DNA from: Chloroflexota bacterium | GTDB lineage: Bacteria; Chloroflexota; UBA11872 | NCBI GenBank assembly: GCA_011523785.1 | Contig: WTFW01000134.1 | Location: 1-35,309, forward strand | Direction: 5' to 3' | Length of the DNA stretch: 35,309 nt | Shown: piece by piece, positions 12,039 to 30,679 of the stretch | How the letters are laid out: each line of letters begins with the position of its first letter | Position numbering within the stretch: the stretch's first letter is position 1 | Translations under genes and position numbers: made by a program | Notes under the pieces: model-generated | Databases searched by the model: none | What the model was told of the DNA's origin: nothing | The model's input: the letters and a program-made list of their open reading frames with translations, nothing else

Positions 12039-12535
12039 GTCTGGCGGCGGCTCCGAGCGATCAGGTCCCGGGAGGCATGGCCCGGCGCGAGGGGAACGAA
12101 CACGGCCGGGATTCCCAGACGCTGGAGCGTGGCGGACTCTGGAAGGGTTCGGCCACCTGTGGAGACATCGTAGTCCGCTCCCTTGACATAATACGAAGGT
12201 CGCAGCCGCTCAATGAGCTGATCGGCAGTCTCTTCGTCAAATGAGGTGACGGCAGCTACCCAACGCACCGCGCGCAGGACCGCCAGCCGGTCGGCCAGCG
12301 GCATGAGGGGCCGGTCGGGGCCTTTGAGCTGGCGAACCCCGGCGTCGCTGTTGACCCCGACTACCAGCCGATCACCAAATGCGGCGGCGCCTCGCAGCAG
12401 GGCGATGTGACCCGGATGAATCAGGTCGAAGCAGCCGTTGGTCAGCACCAGCCGCCGGCCGGCGGCGCGCTGGCGCGAGGCCCAGTCCGGCAGGTCGCCG
12501 GGCAACACCAGGTCGGCCTCAGGCGTCGTCGTCAC
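12035..12535 (-). CDS. rfaE2: RfaE2-like nucleotidyltransferase (heptose-1-phosphate adenylyltransferase)
   Basis: 166 residues, equal to the C-terminal half of HldE. It has the cytidylyltransferase fold motifs LTNGCFDLIHPGH (HxGH active site) and VGVNSD, followed by VKGADYD. The known reaction joins AMP from ATP to D-glycero-beta-D-manno-heptose 1-phosphate to make ADP-heptose. The start is GTG at 12535, 17 bases inside the upstream kinase gene. The kinase and transferase are therefore separate here, where many Gram-negatives have one fused protein. No GmhA, GmhB or HldD gene is in the window. Confidence 0.87.
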   Translation of the reverse strand: MTTTPEADLVLPGDLPDWASRQRAAGRRLVLTNGCFDLIHPGHIALLRGAAAFGDRLVVGVNSDAGVRQLKGPDRPLMPLADRLAVLRAVRWVAAVTSFDEETADQLIERLRPSYYVKGADYDVSTGGRTLPESATLQRLGIPAVFVPLAPGHASRDLIARSRRQT

Positions 12536-25292: not shown

Positions 25293-26399
25293 CTAGGTGA
25301 TCACCTGGGCTTCGTGCGCACTCTCGTAGTCGGTCAGCACCTCTCGTCCCTGCTCGGTGACAAGGACGAGATCCTCGATGTGGTACCCAGCGACATCCGG
25401 GTCCAGGTATGCGGGTTCGATGCAGAGGACCATGCCCGGCCGGAGCACTTCGTCGGTGCTTGGATTGAGCATGGGGTATTCGTGGAGACCCAGGCCGAGC
25501 CCATGCCCGAGATGCGCCAGTTGGAACGGTAGGCCGACTCTCCGGTAGGCGGCCTGGCACGCGGAGAACAGTTCGCGGACCTCAAGACCAGGACGAATGG
25601 CATCGAGCGTATTGACGTGGGCCTGATACAACCGGCTGTAGATGTCCAGCTGCCGGGGGCTCGGCTTGCCAACGAAGGCCGTTCGGGCCAGGTCCGACCA
25701 ATAGCCGACGAAGTTGCCCGCGACATCCGTGTGAAGGACGTCGCCAGCTTCGAGGCGCGTCGCTCCAGGGCGCGCGTGCCACTCGAAGGACCGAATTCCG
25801 GTGCCAAGGAACATGAAGTTCAAGACGTCGGCCCCGGCCGCGGTCACGCCGGCGGTGATGTCGTCCGCGACCTTCTTTTCAGGTTCGCCGACGGTCGCTC
25901 GCTCGAAGGCGCGGCGAATCGCGCGTTCGGTCGAGCGGCCGGCCGCGGCGAGGGCATTGACCTCCTCCGGCGTCTTGATCATTCGGGCGCGGTCCAGCAA
26001 GTCGCCGCAGTCGACGAACGTGGCGCCAGCGAGTCGCTTACGCAGTTGGTTGACATAACCACTTGGAAGGGAGTGCATCTCAAGTCCCAGTCGGCCCTTG
26101 GCAAGACCCTTCTCCTCGACGACATCCGCCAGGAGATCGATCGGCGAGGTGACGAACTCCGTGTAGGCGCGCATGTCCTCGACTTGACAGTCGTCCCGGC
26201 ATGCCACGTCCTCACCCTTGCAGACGACGATCGCCGGGTCTCCTTCAGCGGGCCACACCAGCAGTGCCAACCGGTCGGGAATAAGGCGCTGCATGACCAT
26301 CCGAGCGCCCGAGAGGTAGGAGACGTTCTCCAATGAACTGGCGATTACGCCATCCATTCCCGACTCGGCGAGAAGGGTTTCGAAGCGCTTTAGGTTCAT
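25293..26399 (-). CDS. M24 family metallopeptidase (Xaa-Pro aminopeptidase-like)
   Basis: 368 residues; ATG at 26399 with GAGGAG nine bases upstream. It has an N-terminal creatinase-type domain (about 1-130) and the pita-bread catalytic domain. The five metal ligands can be placed: Asp in HTDVAG, Asp in SDLARTAF, His in LGHGLGLGLHE, Glu in CIEPAY and Glu in YHIEDLVLV. Known members cleave Xaa-Pro peptides or C-N bonds in creatine-like compounds. It is cytoplasmic. It follows the GNAT gene on the same strand at 61 bases. Confidence 0.92.
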   Translation of the reverse strand: MNLKRFETLLAESGMDGVIASSLENVSYLSGARMVMQRLIPDRLALLVWPAEGDPAIVVCKGEDVACRDDCQVEDMRAYTEFVTSPIDLLADVVEEKGLAKGRLGLEMHSLPSGYVNQLRKRLAGATFVDCGDLLDRARMIKTPEEVNALAAAGRSTERAIRRAFERATVGEPEKKVADDITAGVTAAGADVLNFMFLGTGIRSFEWHARPGATRLEAGDVLHTDVAGNFVGYWSDLARTAFVGKPSPRQLDIYSRLYQAHVNTLDAIRPGLEVRELFSACQAAYRRVGLPFQLAHLGHGLGLGLHEYPMLNPSTDEVLRPGMVLCIEPAYLDPDVAGYHIEDLVLVTEQGREVLTDYESAHEAQVIT

Positions 26400-26460
26400 T
26401 TGGCGTCGCTCCTCAGCAGGGCCTGGTTAGTGTGGCCCGGCGGCGGTGGCCGCTCTGGGA

Positions 26461-27060
26461 CTAAACGTGGCCATCCTGGGCTTTCTTAGCAGCTGGGTCC
26501 GCGCAACTGTCTGCCCGCAGCGTCCATTCGTCGCGAAATACGGCGTAGTACACCAGGTCCACGTGCTCGTCTCGCATTTTCCAATGGCCGCGCAGCACGC
26601 CCTCGCGCGTCATGCCCAGCCTCTCCATCACGCGCCAGGACCGCGTGTTGTCCACGTGCGCGCGGGCGTACACCTTGTGCAACCTGAAATGCCGGAATCC
26701 CCAGTCCACAACCGCGCGAGCGGCCTCCGTGGCGAGTCCTTGTCCCCACCAGCGCCGGCCTAGGAGGTAGCCCAACTCCGCAGTTTCATGCTCAGGATTC
26801 AGTTGCAGACTGAGGCCTCCAATGGCCCGCGGACCAAAAGTGATGGCGAATTCCGCACACCGGGACCAGTCGGTTCGCATTTGGCGAATGACGAAGTCCA
26901 GCGCGTCTTGGCGCGTGTACGGATCCGGCAGCGGCCGGAAGCGCGCGACTTCAGGATCCGACGCGTAGGCCCGGACGTCGTCGACATCGCTGAGCTCGAA
27001 CGGCCGCAACAGCAAGCGTGCCGTTCGCAGTTCAACTGGCTTGTCCTGGTCGCCGTGCAT
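26461..27060 (-). CDS. GNAT acetyltransferase, RimJ/RimL type
   Basis: 199 residues, the usual size. The RimJ/RimL pattern is clear: LRTARLLLRPFELSDVDDV at the start, IGGLSLQL, ELGYLLGRRWWGQGLATEA with the acetyl-CoA loop in R/Q-x-x-G-x-A form, and NTRSWRVMERLGMTREG near the end. It should acetylate an amine from acetyl-CoA, perhaps a protein N-terminus or a small molecule. It has a divergent start from the enolase-superfamily gene and precedes the M24 gene on the same strand, so it may share a transcript with it. Confidence 0.9.
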   Translation of the reverse strand: MHGDQDKPVELRTARLLLRPFELSDVDDVRAYASDPEVARFRPLPDPYTRQDALDFVIRQMRTDWSRCAEFAITFGPRAIGGLSLQLNPEHETAELGYLLGRRWWGQGLATEAARAVVDWGFRHFRLHKVYARAHVDNTRSWRVMERLGMTREGVLRGHWKMRDEHVDLVYYAVFRDEWTLRADSCADPAAKKAQDGHV

Positions 27061-27177
27061 CAGTGCATCTCGGTTCGAAAGGCGAGAGTCAACGCCCCAC
27101 TCAGCTCACGCCGTCTGCCGCTACGGTCCGTGGCTGAATGGTACGCCGGGATCGGCCGGCCGTACCTGGACATGCGA

Positions 27178-27203
27178 CACTCCCGCCGAAGTCTGCGGGA
27201 GGT
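27178..27203 (+). promoter_or_regulatory. hairpin sequestering the ribosome site of the enolase-family gene
   Basis: CTCCCGC at 27180-27186 pairs with GCGGGAG at 27195-27201 (7 perfect pairs, 8-base loop). The outer CA/TG can add two pairs past one bulged G. The GGGAGG ribosome site at 27197-27202 lies in the 3' arm, 10 bases before the ATG at 27213. Folding would hide it, so translation may be controlled by structure. Whether this is regulated is not shown. Confidence 0.45.
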
Positions 27204-27212
27204 GTGGCTGCC

Positions 27213-28463
27213 ATGAAGATCGTGTCGGTAGAACAGATTCCGGTGGACGCCGGACACACGGAGCGTCCGGGTCGGCAGATGCGCCGCAAGTGCGCGGACT
27301 GGTCGATCATCGAGGTGTGCAAAGTCACGGCCGACAACGGGCTGGTTGGCTGGGGCGAAACGGTCCCGCACTACACCTGGGGCCGGGTGTCCGACGAAGC
27401 CGCCGAGCGAGCGATCGGGCGCAACCCGGCCGAACTGATGTGGGACGACGGTTGCGGGGCGGGCTTGCAGCAGGCGCTGTTCGATCTCACCGGCAAGGCG
27501 CTTGGCGTACCGTCGTATCGCCTGATCGGTCATAAAGTGCGCGACTGGTGCCCGATCGCCTGGTGGTGCTGGGATATGCCGGCTGACGAGTGGGTGGGTG
27601 AGACGCAGGACGCCGTGGCGGCCGGGTACGCCAGCTTCAAGCTGAAGGCGCGGCCCTGGCACGACCTACGGGCGGCAACGCAGGCAATCAGCGATGCGAC
27701 GCCGGACCACTGCGTGTTCGACCTGGACTTCAACAGCTTGCTGGTGTCGGCAGGGCAGGCGCAGCACGTACTGGCTGACCTGGAGACGTTTCCGAAGGTG
27801 CACTTCTTCGAGACACCGATTCCGCAGCACGACGTGGAAGGCAACCGCTCGCTGCGGGCGAAGCTGCGGCGGCCGGTGGCCATGCACTTTGACAACCCGC
27901 CGTTCCTGACAGCGGTCAAGGAGGGCGTTTGCGACGGCTGGGTGCTGAACCAGGGGGCGGCGCGCACCGTGCACCAGGCGGCGCTGGCGGATGAGGCGAA
28001 CATGCCGCTGTGGCTCCAGCTTGTGGGTACCGGGATCACCACGGCATTCACAGCTCACCTGGGCGCGGTGCTGCCGGCGGCTCAATGGCCGGCCATCACG
28101 TGCCTGAACACCTACCGGGACGATCTGATTCGAGAGCCGCTGGAGATCCGACGCGGTCACATGCGGGTTCCGGAATCGCCGGGCCTGGGGATCGAGGTGG
28201 ACGAGGAAGCCCTGGAACGGCTGCGGCGGCCGGACATTTCGCCGCACGAGCTGCCGCGCATGATTCATACCGTGCGCTGGGCGGAGGGATCTTCGGCGGC
28301 GTACACGGAGCACGACGACATGGAAGCCGACTTCCTGGCGGGCAGCCGGCCTGGATTCGAGCGGGGCGTATCCCTGACGACCGAAGAGGATGACGGGAGC
28401 CCGGCGTTTGACGAGCGGTGGCAGCAGGTGCGGCAGGCCGGAATCCTGACGCGGTACGAGTAG
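27213..28463 (+). CDS. enolase-superfamily enzyme (mandelate racemase-like)
   Basis: 416 residues from the ATG at 27213. The N-terminal capping domain (about 1-125) is followed by the modified TIM barrel. The catalytic K-x-K pair is at Lys143 and Lys145 (SFKLKARPW), metal-binding Asp170 or Asp172 lies in FDLDFNS and Glu200 in FETPIPQ. A third acidic ligand near HFDNPP would be expected. Such enzymes racemise, epimerise or dehydrate acid sugars; no substrate is predictable. It is a single gene, with no partner on the plus strand before a long gene-poor interval. Enolase paralogues are abundant in SAR202 Chloroflexota, which fits the suspected source. Confidence 0.88.
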   Translation: MKIVSVEQIPVDAGHTERPGRQMRRKCADWSIIEVCKVTADNGLVGWGETVPHYTWGRVSDEAAERAIGRNPAELMWDDGCGAGLQQALFDLTGKALGVPSYRLIGHKVRDWCPIAWWCWDMPADEWVGETQDAVAAGYASFKLKARPWHDLRAATQAISDATPDHCVFDLDFNSLLVSAGQAQHVLADLETFPKVHFFETPIPQHDVEGNRSLRAKLRRPVAMHFDNPPFLTAVKEGVCDGWVLNQGAARTVHQAALADEANMPLWLQLVGTGITTAFTAHLGAVLPAAQWPAITCLNTYRDDLIREPLEIRRGHMRVPESPGLGIEVDEEALERLRRPDISPHELPRMIHTVRWAEGSSAAYTEHDDMEADFLAGSRPGFERGVSLTTEEDDGSPAFDERWQQVRQAGILTRYE

Positions 28464-28491
28464 TACGTAACTTTACATAACGCGTACATAA
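28464..28491. repeat. three helically spaced TAC(A/G)TAA motifs
   Basis: TACGTAA at 28464, TACATAA at 28474 and TACATAA at 28485 lie directly after the enolase-family stop codon, spaced 10 and 11 bases. On the other strand one copy reads TTATGTAAAGT, close to a XerD half-site as known from Bacillus dif. They lie in the same orientation, so they do not form a recombination site alone. Confidence 0.45.
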
Positions 28492-28874
28492 TGCGGGGAA
28501 TGTAGGACTCGGAAACTCGGAGTGCCTTTGGCGGATGCGCGAGGGGCCGGGGTGCGACCGGGCTGCGTCAAATGCACTGCCGCGGGGCACAATCCCGAGC
28601 GAGTCGACGGCGGTGACGGTTGGTACGCACCGGGCGAAATCCGCGCCAAGGGATCCGACGAGGTCGCCGCCTGCCGCCGGCGACACTCTTTCCGACCCAT
28701 ACTGCGGCGCCGAGTGGCGATGACGTAACCGCTTGTGCGGAGCACTTGGCGCGGCCAGAGCGCGCTCTGAGTTCCAGGTCAGCGTTGAGCGCCGATCCCG
28801 GAAGCTCCAGGGCTGGAAGACGCTCGTCCGGTCAGCGCCGGTGGCGGCCTGACTGGCTGGACCTTGTGTTCATT

Positions 28875-28902
28875 AATAGAACTAATACACATTAGTTCTA
28901 TA
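28875..28902. other. dif-like recombination site candidate
   Basis: A 28-base site with 11-bp arms AATAGAACTAA and TTAGTTCTATA around the 6-base centre TACACA. The arms match in inverted orientation at 10 of 11 positions. The strict palindrome is 28876-28886 with 28891-28901. The layout 11-6-11, the inner TAA/TTA edges and the asymmetric centre are those of Xer target sites; the E. coli dif centre, read on one strand, is TATACA. A Xer-like recombinase gene starts 407 bases away. An operator or plain hairpin remains possible. Confidence 0.6.
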
Positions 28903-29218
28903 AGTCTAATCTCATGGCACTCGGGCGGGGTCATGCAGGGCGCGGAGTGTCCGACGGTCCTCACGGGGTTGGTGTGCATGGCTTGTTTCGGCGCTCTCCA
29001 GATAGCCGTGGACTCAGCGGGTCGGCGGAACCCCGGTAACGACTGGGTGACCAGGGATCGACCATGGGCCTATGACGCCCGAGCCTCCTGTCCTGCCTTC
29101 ACGCTCGACATGAACCGTGCGTCGTCTGAGGCTTCCTGAAGGCCGACGAGCCTGAATTCCGAGCGAATTCGCGAAGTGCCGCGGGGTAGCGAGCGGTCGT
29201 ACAGGTTCGAAAAGTCTC

Positions 29219-29247
29219 GTGACAGAGTTGACGGGGCGCGCTAGATT
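29219..29247 (+). promoter_or_regulatory. candidate sigma70-type promoter before the recombinase
   Basis: GTGACA at 29219-29224 and TAGATT at 29242-29247 stand 17 bases apart, matching the -35 and -10 consensus at 5 and 4 of 6 positions. Transcription would begin about 55 bases before the recombinase ATG. Confidence 0.35.
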
Positions 29248-29308
29248 CAAAGTTCCCACTGTGTCGTGGGGGTACCGGTAGTGCACAGGTGAATCGGGAT
29301 TGGAGGCC

Positions 29309-30316
29309 ATGAGCCAGACCTTGCAAGCCGCAACGGCAGACTTTCTGGGCGCCATGCGTGCCAAGTCGCCGAGCACGAGGGCGACCTATGGGACTGGTCT
29401 GCGGCGTTTTCTGGCCTGGCGGGGTACGGAGACGCCGCTGGACGAGTTGGACGACAGCGTGCTCGAGCGGTTTTACCTGGAGTTGGTGGATGAGTTCGGA
29501 CGCGAGCGGCAGGCGACGATCTCGACCTACCTGGCGGCGGTTCGCGCCTTTCTGAGGCATTGCCTGCGCTCCGGTGCGTTAGACGGGGTCGAACTCGAGC
29601 GGGCGGTCGAGCGATTACGTGCGGTTCGCGACAAGCCCGGATACCGGACGCCGCGGGTCGAGAACGGGCTGGCGCTGATTGTTGATTATGTCAAGAACGA
29701 ACTGCCAGGACTGATTGCCGAATCAGCGTCAAGAGACGCCCGGCTCCGGGTTTATCGGGACCGAGCGTTGCTACTCCTGCTGTTTACCACCGGCATGCGG
29801 CGGCGCGAGGCGGCTCGATTGGACCGAAGAGACGTGGATGACGGGCAGGCGCAGCAGGCGCTGATTACCGGGAAGGGCGACCGGGAGCGCGTGGTGTTTT
29901 TCGACGACGACACGCGTGAAGCGATTCGCGCCTACGTCGAGGCACGGCACGACGCCAGTGCGCCTCTGTTCATTCGGCATCACGGGAAGCCCAAGAATCC
30001 TGGTCGTGCGGGCGAGCGGCTGCGGTTATCGCCGCAGTCGATCTGGAAGATCGTGAAGACCTATGCCAAAGCGGTGGGCGTGCCGGCCACGACGCATGAC
30101 TTCCGGCACCTAAAGGCCACGTCGCTACTCAATCGGGGCGCAAACCTCTCGGAGGTCCAGGACATCCTGGGGCACGCCTCGCCGGACACGACAAAGCGCA
30201 TCTACGCGCACTATGAAACCGCCAAATTGCGCGAGGCGTTCGATCGATACAGCCCGTCGGTGGAAGAGGCCGCAGCGGCGGCGCGCAAGGGCCGGTCGCT
30301 GGCGGGGTCACGGTAA
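29309..30316 (+). CDS. Xer-like tyrosine recombinase
   Basis: 335 residues from the ATG at 29309, with GGAGG two bases before it (a TTG at 29300 is the alternative). An N-terminal SAM-like core-binding domain (about 5-95) is followed by the catalytic domain. The active-site set is complete: Arg164 in TGMRRREAARL, Lys189 in ITGKGDRER, His263 and Arg266 in HDFRHLKATSLL, His289 in ILGHASPDTT, and nucleophile Tyr299. It has no phage-integrase N-terminal arm-binding extension. A dif-like site lies about 400 bases upstream and no phage, integron or IS genes are near, so a chromosome-resolution or resident single-recombinase system is likelier than a mobile integrase. The next gene starts six bases after the stop. 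Confidence 0.93.
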   Translation: MSQTLQAATADFLGAMRAKSPSTRATYGTGLRRFLAWRGTETPLDELDDSVLERFYLELVDEFGRERQATISTYLAAVRAFLRHCLRSGALDGVELERAVERLRAVRDKPGYRTPRVENGLALIVDYVKNELPGLIAESASRDARLRVYRDRALLLLLFTTGMRRREAARLDRRDVDDGQAQQALITGKGDRERVVFFDDDTREAIRAYVEARHDASAPLFIRHHGKPKNPGRAGERLRLSPQSIWKIVKTYAKAVGVPATTHDFRHLKATSLLNRGANLSEVQDILGHASPDTTKRIYAHYETAKLREAFDRYSPSVEEAAAAARKGRSLAGSR

Positions 30317-30322
30317 GGCGCA

Positions 30323-30679
30323 ATGGCTACCGAGCATCGGCGTCATGTCAGCGGGCTGACCACGACAGCTCAGGTGGCACCTGAGGCAATCTGGTTGTGC
30401 CGGGTGTGCCACCGGACCAACGCGCGGGGGTGGCAGGTGTGCCGGTTGTGCGGCGCGGAGCGCCCGGCGCGTCACGCTTGGATGAAAACGCGAGTGTTTC
30501 GTTTGCTGGCGTTTCTGCTGGCAGCCGTCGGCAGCGGGGCGATCGGGGTGGTGGTGCTGAGTGCGTGGGGAGCGGTGGTCAGCGGGCCGTGGGTGCTTCC
30601 GGCCATTGCGATCTGGGTGCTTGGATGCCTGGCGGTCCTGGTCGTTGTATCGATGAGGCAGGCGTTGAGCGGCGGTTAG
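30323..30679 (+). CDS. RanBP2-type zinc-finger membrane protein
   Basis: 118 residues. Residues 24-43 match the RanBP2 finger consensus exactly: W24-x-C26-x2-C29-x3-N33-x6-C40-x2-C43. Two hydrophobic membrane segments follow at about 58-80 and 87-110, so the finger is likely cytoplasmic. AAGGCG lies just before the ATG, and the gene begins six bases after the recombinase stop, implying co-transcription. RanBP2 fingers bind RNA or proteins. In bacteria they often sit on small membrane proteins of unknown role. The C-terminal end overlaps the converging ceramidase-like gene by four bases. Confidence 0.75.
   Translation: MATEHRRHVSGLTTTAQVAPEAIWLCRVCHRTNARGWQVCRLCGAERPARHAWMKTRVFRLLAFLLAAVGSGAIGVVVLSAWGAVVSGPWVLPAIAIWVLGCLAVLVVVSMRQALSGG

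Follow-up and report, generated by a model that had tools for sequence, protein, structure and literature searches.

A candidate dif site with symmetric arms, a linked tyrosine recombinase, and polar XerD-type half-sites in a Chloroflexota lineage

The palindrome and the adjoining recombinase gene

The DNA analysed here, called the window, is a stretch of 35,309 nucleotides from a Chloroflexota bacterium (assembly GCA_011523785.1, contig WTFW01000134.1), whose genome is referred to as G000. It contains a short palindrome and, downstream of it, a gene for a putative tyrosine recombinase, named XerX (Table 1). The palindrome lies in a gap of 836 bases (28464-29299), which becomes 845 bases, the figure of a first-pass annotation, if it is counted to the ATG at 29309. 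The layout given in that annotation, 11-base arms around a 6-base centre with 10 of 11 arm positions pairing, was recovered when the window was re-read, and all six residues of the R-K-H-R-H-Y set that it ascribed to the adjoining recombinase are present. Read with a 4-base spacer, these bases give a perfect 11-4-11 inverted repeat (28876-28901).

Table 1 Features of the window that bear on the candidate dif site
Feature	Position	Strand	Description or basis
Candidate dif site	28875..28902	.	AATAGAACTAA TACACA TTAGTTCTATA, 11-6-11; conservation and polarity flip
XerX, putative tyrosine recombinase	29300..30316	+	338 aa from TTG 29300, alternative ATG 29309; R-K-H-R-H-Y
TTGACATAA half-site, toward site	12183..12191	+	window motif search
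TTGACATAA half-site, toward site	26050..26058	+	window motif search
TTTACATAA variant half-site, toward site	28472..28480	+	window motif search
TTGACATAA half-site inside XerX gene, back toward site	29686..29694	-	window motif search

Apart from the repeat at 28876-28901, the window holds no perfect inverted repeat with 11-bp arms and a spacer of at most 12. When the sequence was shuffled 60 times under a first-order Markov model, such repeats occurred at a mean of 0.32 per window-length shuffle; 22% of the shuffles held at least one, and none held one with A+T-rich arms. Taken alone, the palindrome is only modestly improbable, so that conservation becomes the deciding evidence.

The window's own pattern, with at most two mismatches, was found in 17 of 41 relatives, every one of them in family f1 and at one place each (17 of the 19 relatives in this family, with G003 and G011 as the misses), and in none of the 22 genomes outside f1; the reversed pattern had no match in the same 41 relatives. 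A degenerate form of the pattern (at most two mismatches) detected the site in 21 of the 24 genomes of the order, as a single copy in 20 of the 21, and missed it in G003, G021, and G022; G019 holds a perfect palindrome together with a second, weaker match. Ungapped pairwise identity in genus g1 (11 genomes) was 0.96 for the arms, 0.71 for the 4-base spacer, and 0.38 for the flanks, and in genus g2 (5 genomes) it was 1.00, 0.70, and 0.36, respectively, with G011 (g1) and G015 (g2) omitted from these counts.

Of 54 loci in GTDB r220 that carried the degenerate pattern, 20 were from Chloroflexota and 34 were not titled Chloroflexi or Chloroflexota. The 34 were treated as chance matches because the fetched DNA held no XerX relative in any of them (E <= 1e-4) and because TTGACATAA, a polar motif described below, stood at 4:1 toward and away from the pattern. 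The 20 Chloroflexota loci, several of which are the same genomes as in our G-numbered set, included 13 with an XerX relative, and their ratio for TTGACATAA was 15:0.

The pairing of site and recombinase, which the annotation expected to be conserved in relatives, was borne out. In 17 of the 18 site-bearing f1 genomes, a distance of 0.4-1.1 kb separates the site from the 5' end of XerX, and the gene reads away from the site; in the remaining genome, G015, the site begins at contig base 63. XerX is also near the site in two of the three site-bearing genomes of f2 (G020 and G023; 1.4-1.5 kb) and in locus L204, and the two are unlinked in G019, 362 kb apart. The R-K-H-R-H-Y set is complete in all 29 aligned XerX rows; for two rows from family f5 (G034 and G037), the matched stretch includes a single in-frame TAG, which lies outside the aligned segment. 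Used as query, XerX matches 40 of the 41 genomes at E <= 0.001, a count that takes in XerD-like and other recombinases, and G038, G040, and G030 (f3) each have two or more XerX-like matches at about 50%. No NCBIfam cut-off was passed: XerX scored 142.2 of 335.15 for TIGR02224 and 136.9 of 329.6 for TIGR02225 (XerC and XerD), 85.5 of 267 for XerS, and 144.8 of 220 for archaeal XerA (NF040815), yet the latter was its best hit.

Directly 3' of XerX, a frame of 118 aa (30323-30679, + strand) has CxxC pairs close to its beginning and, as judged by eye, hydrophobic stretches; it has no Pfam match.

The catalytic domain family of XerX is common to integrases, and the recombinase and the palindrome could be the integrase and attachment site of a mobile element. 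Such an origin is extremely unlikely, since the identity of XerX declines with kinship as does that of the XerD orthologue described below, nearly all genomes carry one copy of the site, and viral contigs yielded neither a match to the site pattern nor a confirmed relative of the protein; moreover, the Pfam matches of eight scanned neighbour genes are metabolic, housekeeping, or none.

Polar half-sites and the position of the site on the chromosome

In the window, the three exact copies of the nine-base motif TTGACATAA all point toward the palindrome, and their change of strand brackets it. A k-mer polarity scan of G002, G006, and G013, ranked by the score of the weakest genome, placed GACATAA and TGACATAA at the top, and in a composition-corrected ranking TTGACATAA was first among 83,243 tested 9-mers. 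The second-ranked 9-mer, GGCTAAACT (31:0), occurred only in the sampled stretches of G002 among four genomes and is probably a repeat array. TTGACATAA belongs to the degenerate motif TTDACATAA, where D is A, G, or T. Over the 2.5 Mb of stretches from G002, G006, G013, and G019 plus the window, copies pointing toward and away from the site numbered 55:0 for TTGACATAA, 22:0 for TTTACATAA, 4:0 for TTAACATAA, and 10:2 for TCGACATAA, and the looser GACATAA stood at 83:5 in four genomes. The gene finder placed 12 of the 55 TTGACATAA copies in intergenic DNA, 17 in sense and 26 in antisense orientation.

In G002, one contig of 3,002,743 bases with the site at 2,442,548, all 33 copies of TTGACATAA in the whole genome point toward the site, and the reversed pattern occurs twice. 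Twenty copies are on the + strand (864,678 to 2,440,746) and 13 on the - strand (from 2,449,708 across the record start as far as 116,829), which gives two sign changes. The terminus-side change falls in a 9-kb bracket (2,440,746-2,449,708) with the site inside it; the second, between 116,829 and 864,678, encloses the origin markers dnaA (800 kb), 16S (784 kb), and parS (839 and 850 kb). The antipodes of these markers fall 97-157 kb from the site, or 3-5% of the genome, and 28 of the 33 copies are located in the half of each arm nearer the terminus. Contig C13 of G013 has nine copies on the + strand up to 214,107 and six on the - strand from 223,387, with the site at 215,473. Contig C1 of G019 has one copy on the + strand at 37,360 and eight on the - strand from 39,271, with the site at 37,888, so that the flip tracks the site and not the XerX gene (399,562). 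Both the position opposite dnaA and parS and the flip of the motif at the site agree with the terminus that the first-pass annotation expected nearby. TTGACATAA is scarce in the f3 genome G030 (4 copies), and the motif is therefore not class-wide.

The annotation also anticipated a switch of GC skew at the site, which was seen in part. The minimum of the cumulative skew fell in the 4-kb chunk containing the site in G002, where 80 stretches were sampled, one of them added at the site, with gaps between them that set a resolution of some tens of kb. In G006, the minimum within 165-345 kb was at 269.5 kb, within 4 kb of the site at 265.7 kb, and further sign switches were found at about 165 and 340 kb. 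The sign at the site was origin-like in both genomes and not terminus-like, and in G002 it was present at third codon positions on both gene strands; neither G013 (g2) nor G019 had a switch at the site, and the skew of G019 was flat. Because its sign and place vary, GC skew gives partial support only, and alone it would not carry the claim of a terminus. The nine-base polar motif provides a marker of the terminus for draft genomes in which GC skew fails.

Sites resembling parS (at most two mismatches), counted in whole genomes, numbered 12 in G000 and 13 in G004, on many contigs; G002, G013, and G020 had one or two, and G019 none.

The polarity flip led by prediction to a new candidate dif in one other family, f4. 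On contig C2 of G029, the motif flips, among the matches listed, between 608,684 and 612,433, a 3.7-kb interval; the reversed pattern is more frequent there (11 against 40). A search of this interval for arms over half A+T with spacers of 4-8 gave one perfect 11-bp pair, AGTTCCGAGAA-TGTATC-TTCTCGGAACT, at 609,620, intergenic according to the gene finder. This palindrome occurs once in each of the six f4 genomes, all from one genus, and in none of the 35 other genomes of the class (at most three mismatches), with an identity of 0.97 for the arms and 0.44 for the flanks. It is unlinked to the XerX-like gene of G029, which lies 120 kb away, and the f4 protein used for comparison had only 29% identity to its best XerX row. 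In family f5, the corresponding bracket of G034 (26,315-28,691) contained no A+T-rich palindrome, only G+C-rich repeats.

These results bear on whether the palindrome instead serves the recombinase gene, or a neighbour, as operator or terminator, a role that its place in an intergenic gap upstream of the recombinase would allow. We regard this as very improbable: in G019 the site is 362 kb from the gene and the polarity flip is at the site, the single-copy palindrome of f4 is likewise far from the XerX-like gene in G029, and the flanks are not conserved.

The second Xer protein and the reading of arms and half-sites

The recombinase beside the site had been described as a lone Xer, which did not hold, as G000 also carries an XerD-like gene (C167) and a 62-aa fragment (C21). 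The XerD-like gene adjoins a frame that we take to encode a purine nucleoside phosphorylase, an order presumably like ripX-drm-pupG in B. subtilis. XerD-like genes were found in 39 of the 41 relatives with one match each (E <= 1e-30).

In 29 of 30 aligned rows, the XerD orthologue has an arginine for the catalytic lysine, which is kept in G003; the arginine is in the same column in 6 rows and one column before it in 23, in a hairpin that aligns loosely. In f1, this lysine is the only departure from R-K-H-R-H-Y. Further losses are an H to Q in G025 and, in the best-matching translations of three additional genomes, an R to H and a first H to R in G019 and a first H to R in G034; the translation from the third, G030, matched a different recombinase with GKG and was left out of the count. 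The change of K to R cripples enzymes of the tyrosine-recombinase type, and judged by these residues the XerD orthologue looks catalytically degenerate. The sequence TRQGFW is identical in all 30 rows of the XerD orthologue and absent from the XerX rows; the TRQGFW helix contacts DNA.

G003 (76% complete) is without the site, its only match to XerX is XerD-like, and it has the sole XerD row with the hairpin lysine. This genome may rely on an active XerD; alternatively, its assembly may lack the XerX region.

The two arms of the site change together. The arm pair is GAACTAA/TTAGTTC in f1, GATATAA/TTATATC in G020, G023, L204, and L251, and GACATAA/TTATGTC in G019, and in G031 (f4) an A to G change at one outer arm end is accompanied by T to C at the other; the exceptions with unlike arms are G011 and L219. 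Paired changes are the pattern expected if one protein reads both arms. The action of one recombinase on both arms, as the annotation proposed, is the reading favoured, short of proof, by the co-changing arms and the degenerate second Xer. Two core Xer proteins remain, so that a two-protein synapse keeps some probability; in f1 the lysine alone sets the XerD orthologue apart, and G003 retains it.

These two proteins could form a classical two-recombinase system, in which XerX is the XerC-like partner, the XerD orthologue is the other, and dif happens to be symmetric. The XerD-like gene of most relatives fits such a system, as does the report that xerC genes are mostly near dif (PMC3025954, in the part available). 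A scan of 13 loci (f2, f3, f5, and L204) with a generic dif consensus gave nothing convincing beyond previously identified palindromes and, at three loci of f3, a weaker CGATAAT form. There, at L044:1295, L045:1209, and L047:1309, an unequal-armed CGATAAT...TTA candidate, CGATAATGNNAATTA, lies 170-300 bp upstream of XerX orthologues, which also suits two recombinases; it was not seen in L049 or L050. Against a classical pair stand the equality of the arms and their paired changes, the lack of a classical XerD half-site in the arms of f1 and f4, and the arginine in the XerD orthologue with the further losses of R or H in G019, G025, and G034, which together make it unlikely. A single recombinase acting on both arms remains the favoured reading.

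The polar motif itself is related to XerD sites. TTGACATAA is identical to a classical XerD half-site, and the three third-base forms of TTDACATAA, when reverse-complemented, equal TTATGTCAA, TTATGTAAA, and TTATGTTAA, which are parts of the dif sites printed for F. alni, B. subtilis, and E. coli in the available part of PMC3025954. The motif might nevertheless serve as the FtsK-orienting sequence of this group, in the role of KOPS, and be read by FtsK gamma rather than XerD. Its complete polarity with a flip at dif resembles that of KOPS (GGGNAGGG) in an E. coli control of 200 kb around dif, where GGGNAGGG stood at 21:0; TTDACATAA stood at 3:0 in the same 200 kb, too few to judge the generality of polar XerD half-sites. 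GGGNAGGG was not polar in G002 (132:143), G013 (13:15), and G019 (29:24), and stood at 38:18 in G006. FtsK gamma was matched in 39 of the 41 genomes, above the cut-off in 36 and weakly in genus g1 (28.9-34.1 bits). Set against an FtsK reader are the match of all three third-base forms to XerD half-sites of the three printed dif sites and the XerD recognition motif kept in every row, and we hold this reader to be doubtful, if quite possible.

A division of Xer duties within this class of Chloroflexota may be tentatively proposed, at somewhat less than even chances, in which a catalysis-dead XerD reads polar half-sites over most of both arms and steers segregation to the terminus, through FtsK direction, SMC unloading, or both, and the other recombinase alone resolves dimers at a perfectly symmetric dif.

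A proposed model and its relation to known systems

The palindrome is very probably the dif of this Chloroflexota lineage. Its reading as a chromosome dimer-resolution site, put forward in the first-pass annotation, is supported at the level of sequence by a conserved, near-single-copy site and a polarity flip opposite dnaA and parS; the linkage to XerX and the intact and degenerate active sites of the two Xer proteins complete the picture. We infer from these features that XerX would bind both equal arms and catalyse both strand exchanges around the 6-bp centre, converting a dimeric chromosome to monomers at division, probably with FtsK. The polar TTDACATAA half-sites on the chromosome arms would point to dif and would most likely be bound by the XerD orthologue, which appears to have kept its DNA-recognition motif and lost catalytic residues; the bound protein may then mark direction for the segregation machinery. 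In B. subtilis, XerD is reportedly an SMC unloader at the terminus. Taken as a whole, a symmetric dif linked to XerX, with polar half-sites pointing to it, is in our judgement the likely explanation of the locus.

This model provides a candidate dif and a likely recombinase for a lineage with none found in print. No Chloroflexota dif with a tyrosine recombinase was found in the open-licence literature, where absence is weak evidence; in the available part of PMC3025954, the mentions of Chloroflexi are dif predictions in three Dehalococcoides. The string TTGACATAA had no dif context among the matches listed from this literature, as far as titles and the starts of abstracts go, and the occurrences of TTATGTCAAGT included a dif context. 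The polar half-sites together with a degenerate XerD are the part that was not found described in the open-licence papers searched; such a pairing would open an XerD role apart from recombination to direct test.

Several features are shared with known systems. In Legionellales, according to the accessible part of PMC9765430, one recombinase, XerL, acts with perfectly symmetric dif arms, and the likeness extends to a short intergenic site near the terminus, with long and perfectly symmetric arms, and to a lineage in which the usual dif is unseen. Unlike in XerL/dif as given there, the recombinase here usually adjoins the site, and there is a second core Xer, seemingly catalytically degenerate, with polar XerD-type half-sites on the arms. 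XerH/difH and XerS/difSL, as presented in the available part of PMC5357621, also have a recombinase gene adjoining its site and a single-recombinase logic, whereas their sites have imperfect or unequal arms, with an 11-bp centre in difSL, and their proteins are longer (354-362 aa for XerH and 356 aa for XerS, against 338 aa for XerX).

The 28-bp 11-6-11 layout with TAA/TTA inner edges is that of XerC/XerD-dif, the XerD orthologue is kept, and the polar motif is an XerD half-site; in contrast to that system, the arms here are equal and co-changing, and 29 of 30 rows of the XerD orthologue are without the catalytic lysine. The motif is like KOPS in being short, polar toward dif along the arms, and enriched near the terminus, but it is a recombinase half-site and not GGGNAGGG. 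Finally, XerD unloads SMC at the B. subtilis terminus, as cited in the available part of PMC12322038, and that system resembles the one proposed here in a role of XerD at terminus sites apart from recombination, whereas in the lineage described here the polarity of the sites extends across most of both arms, and the XerD orthologue appears degenerate.
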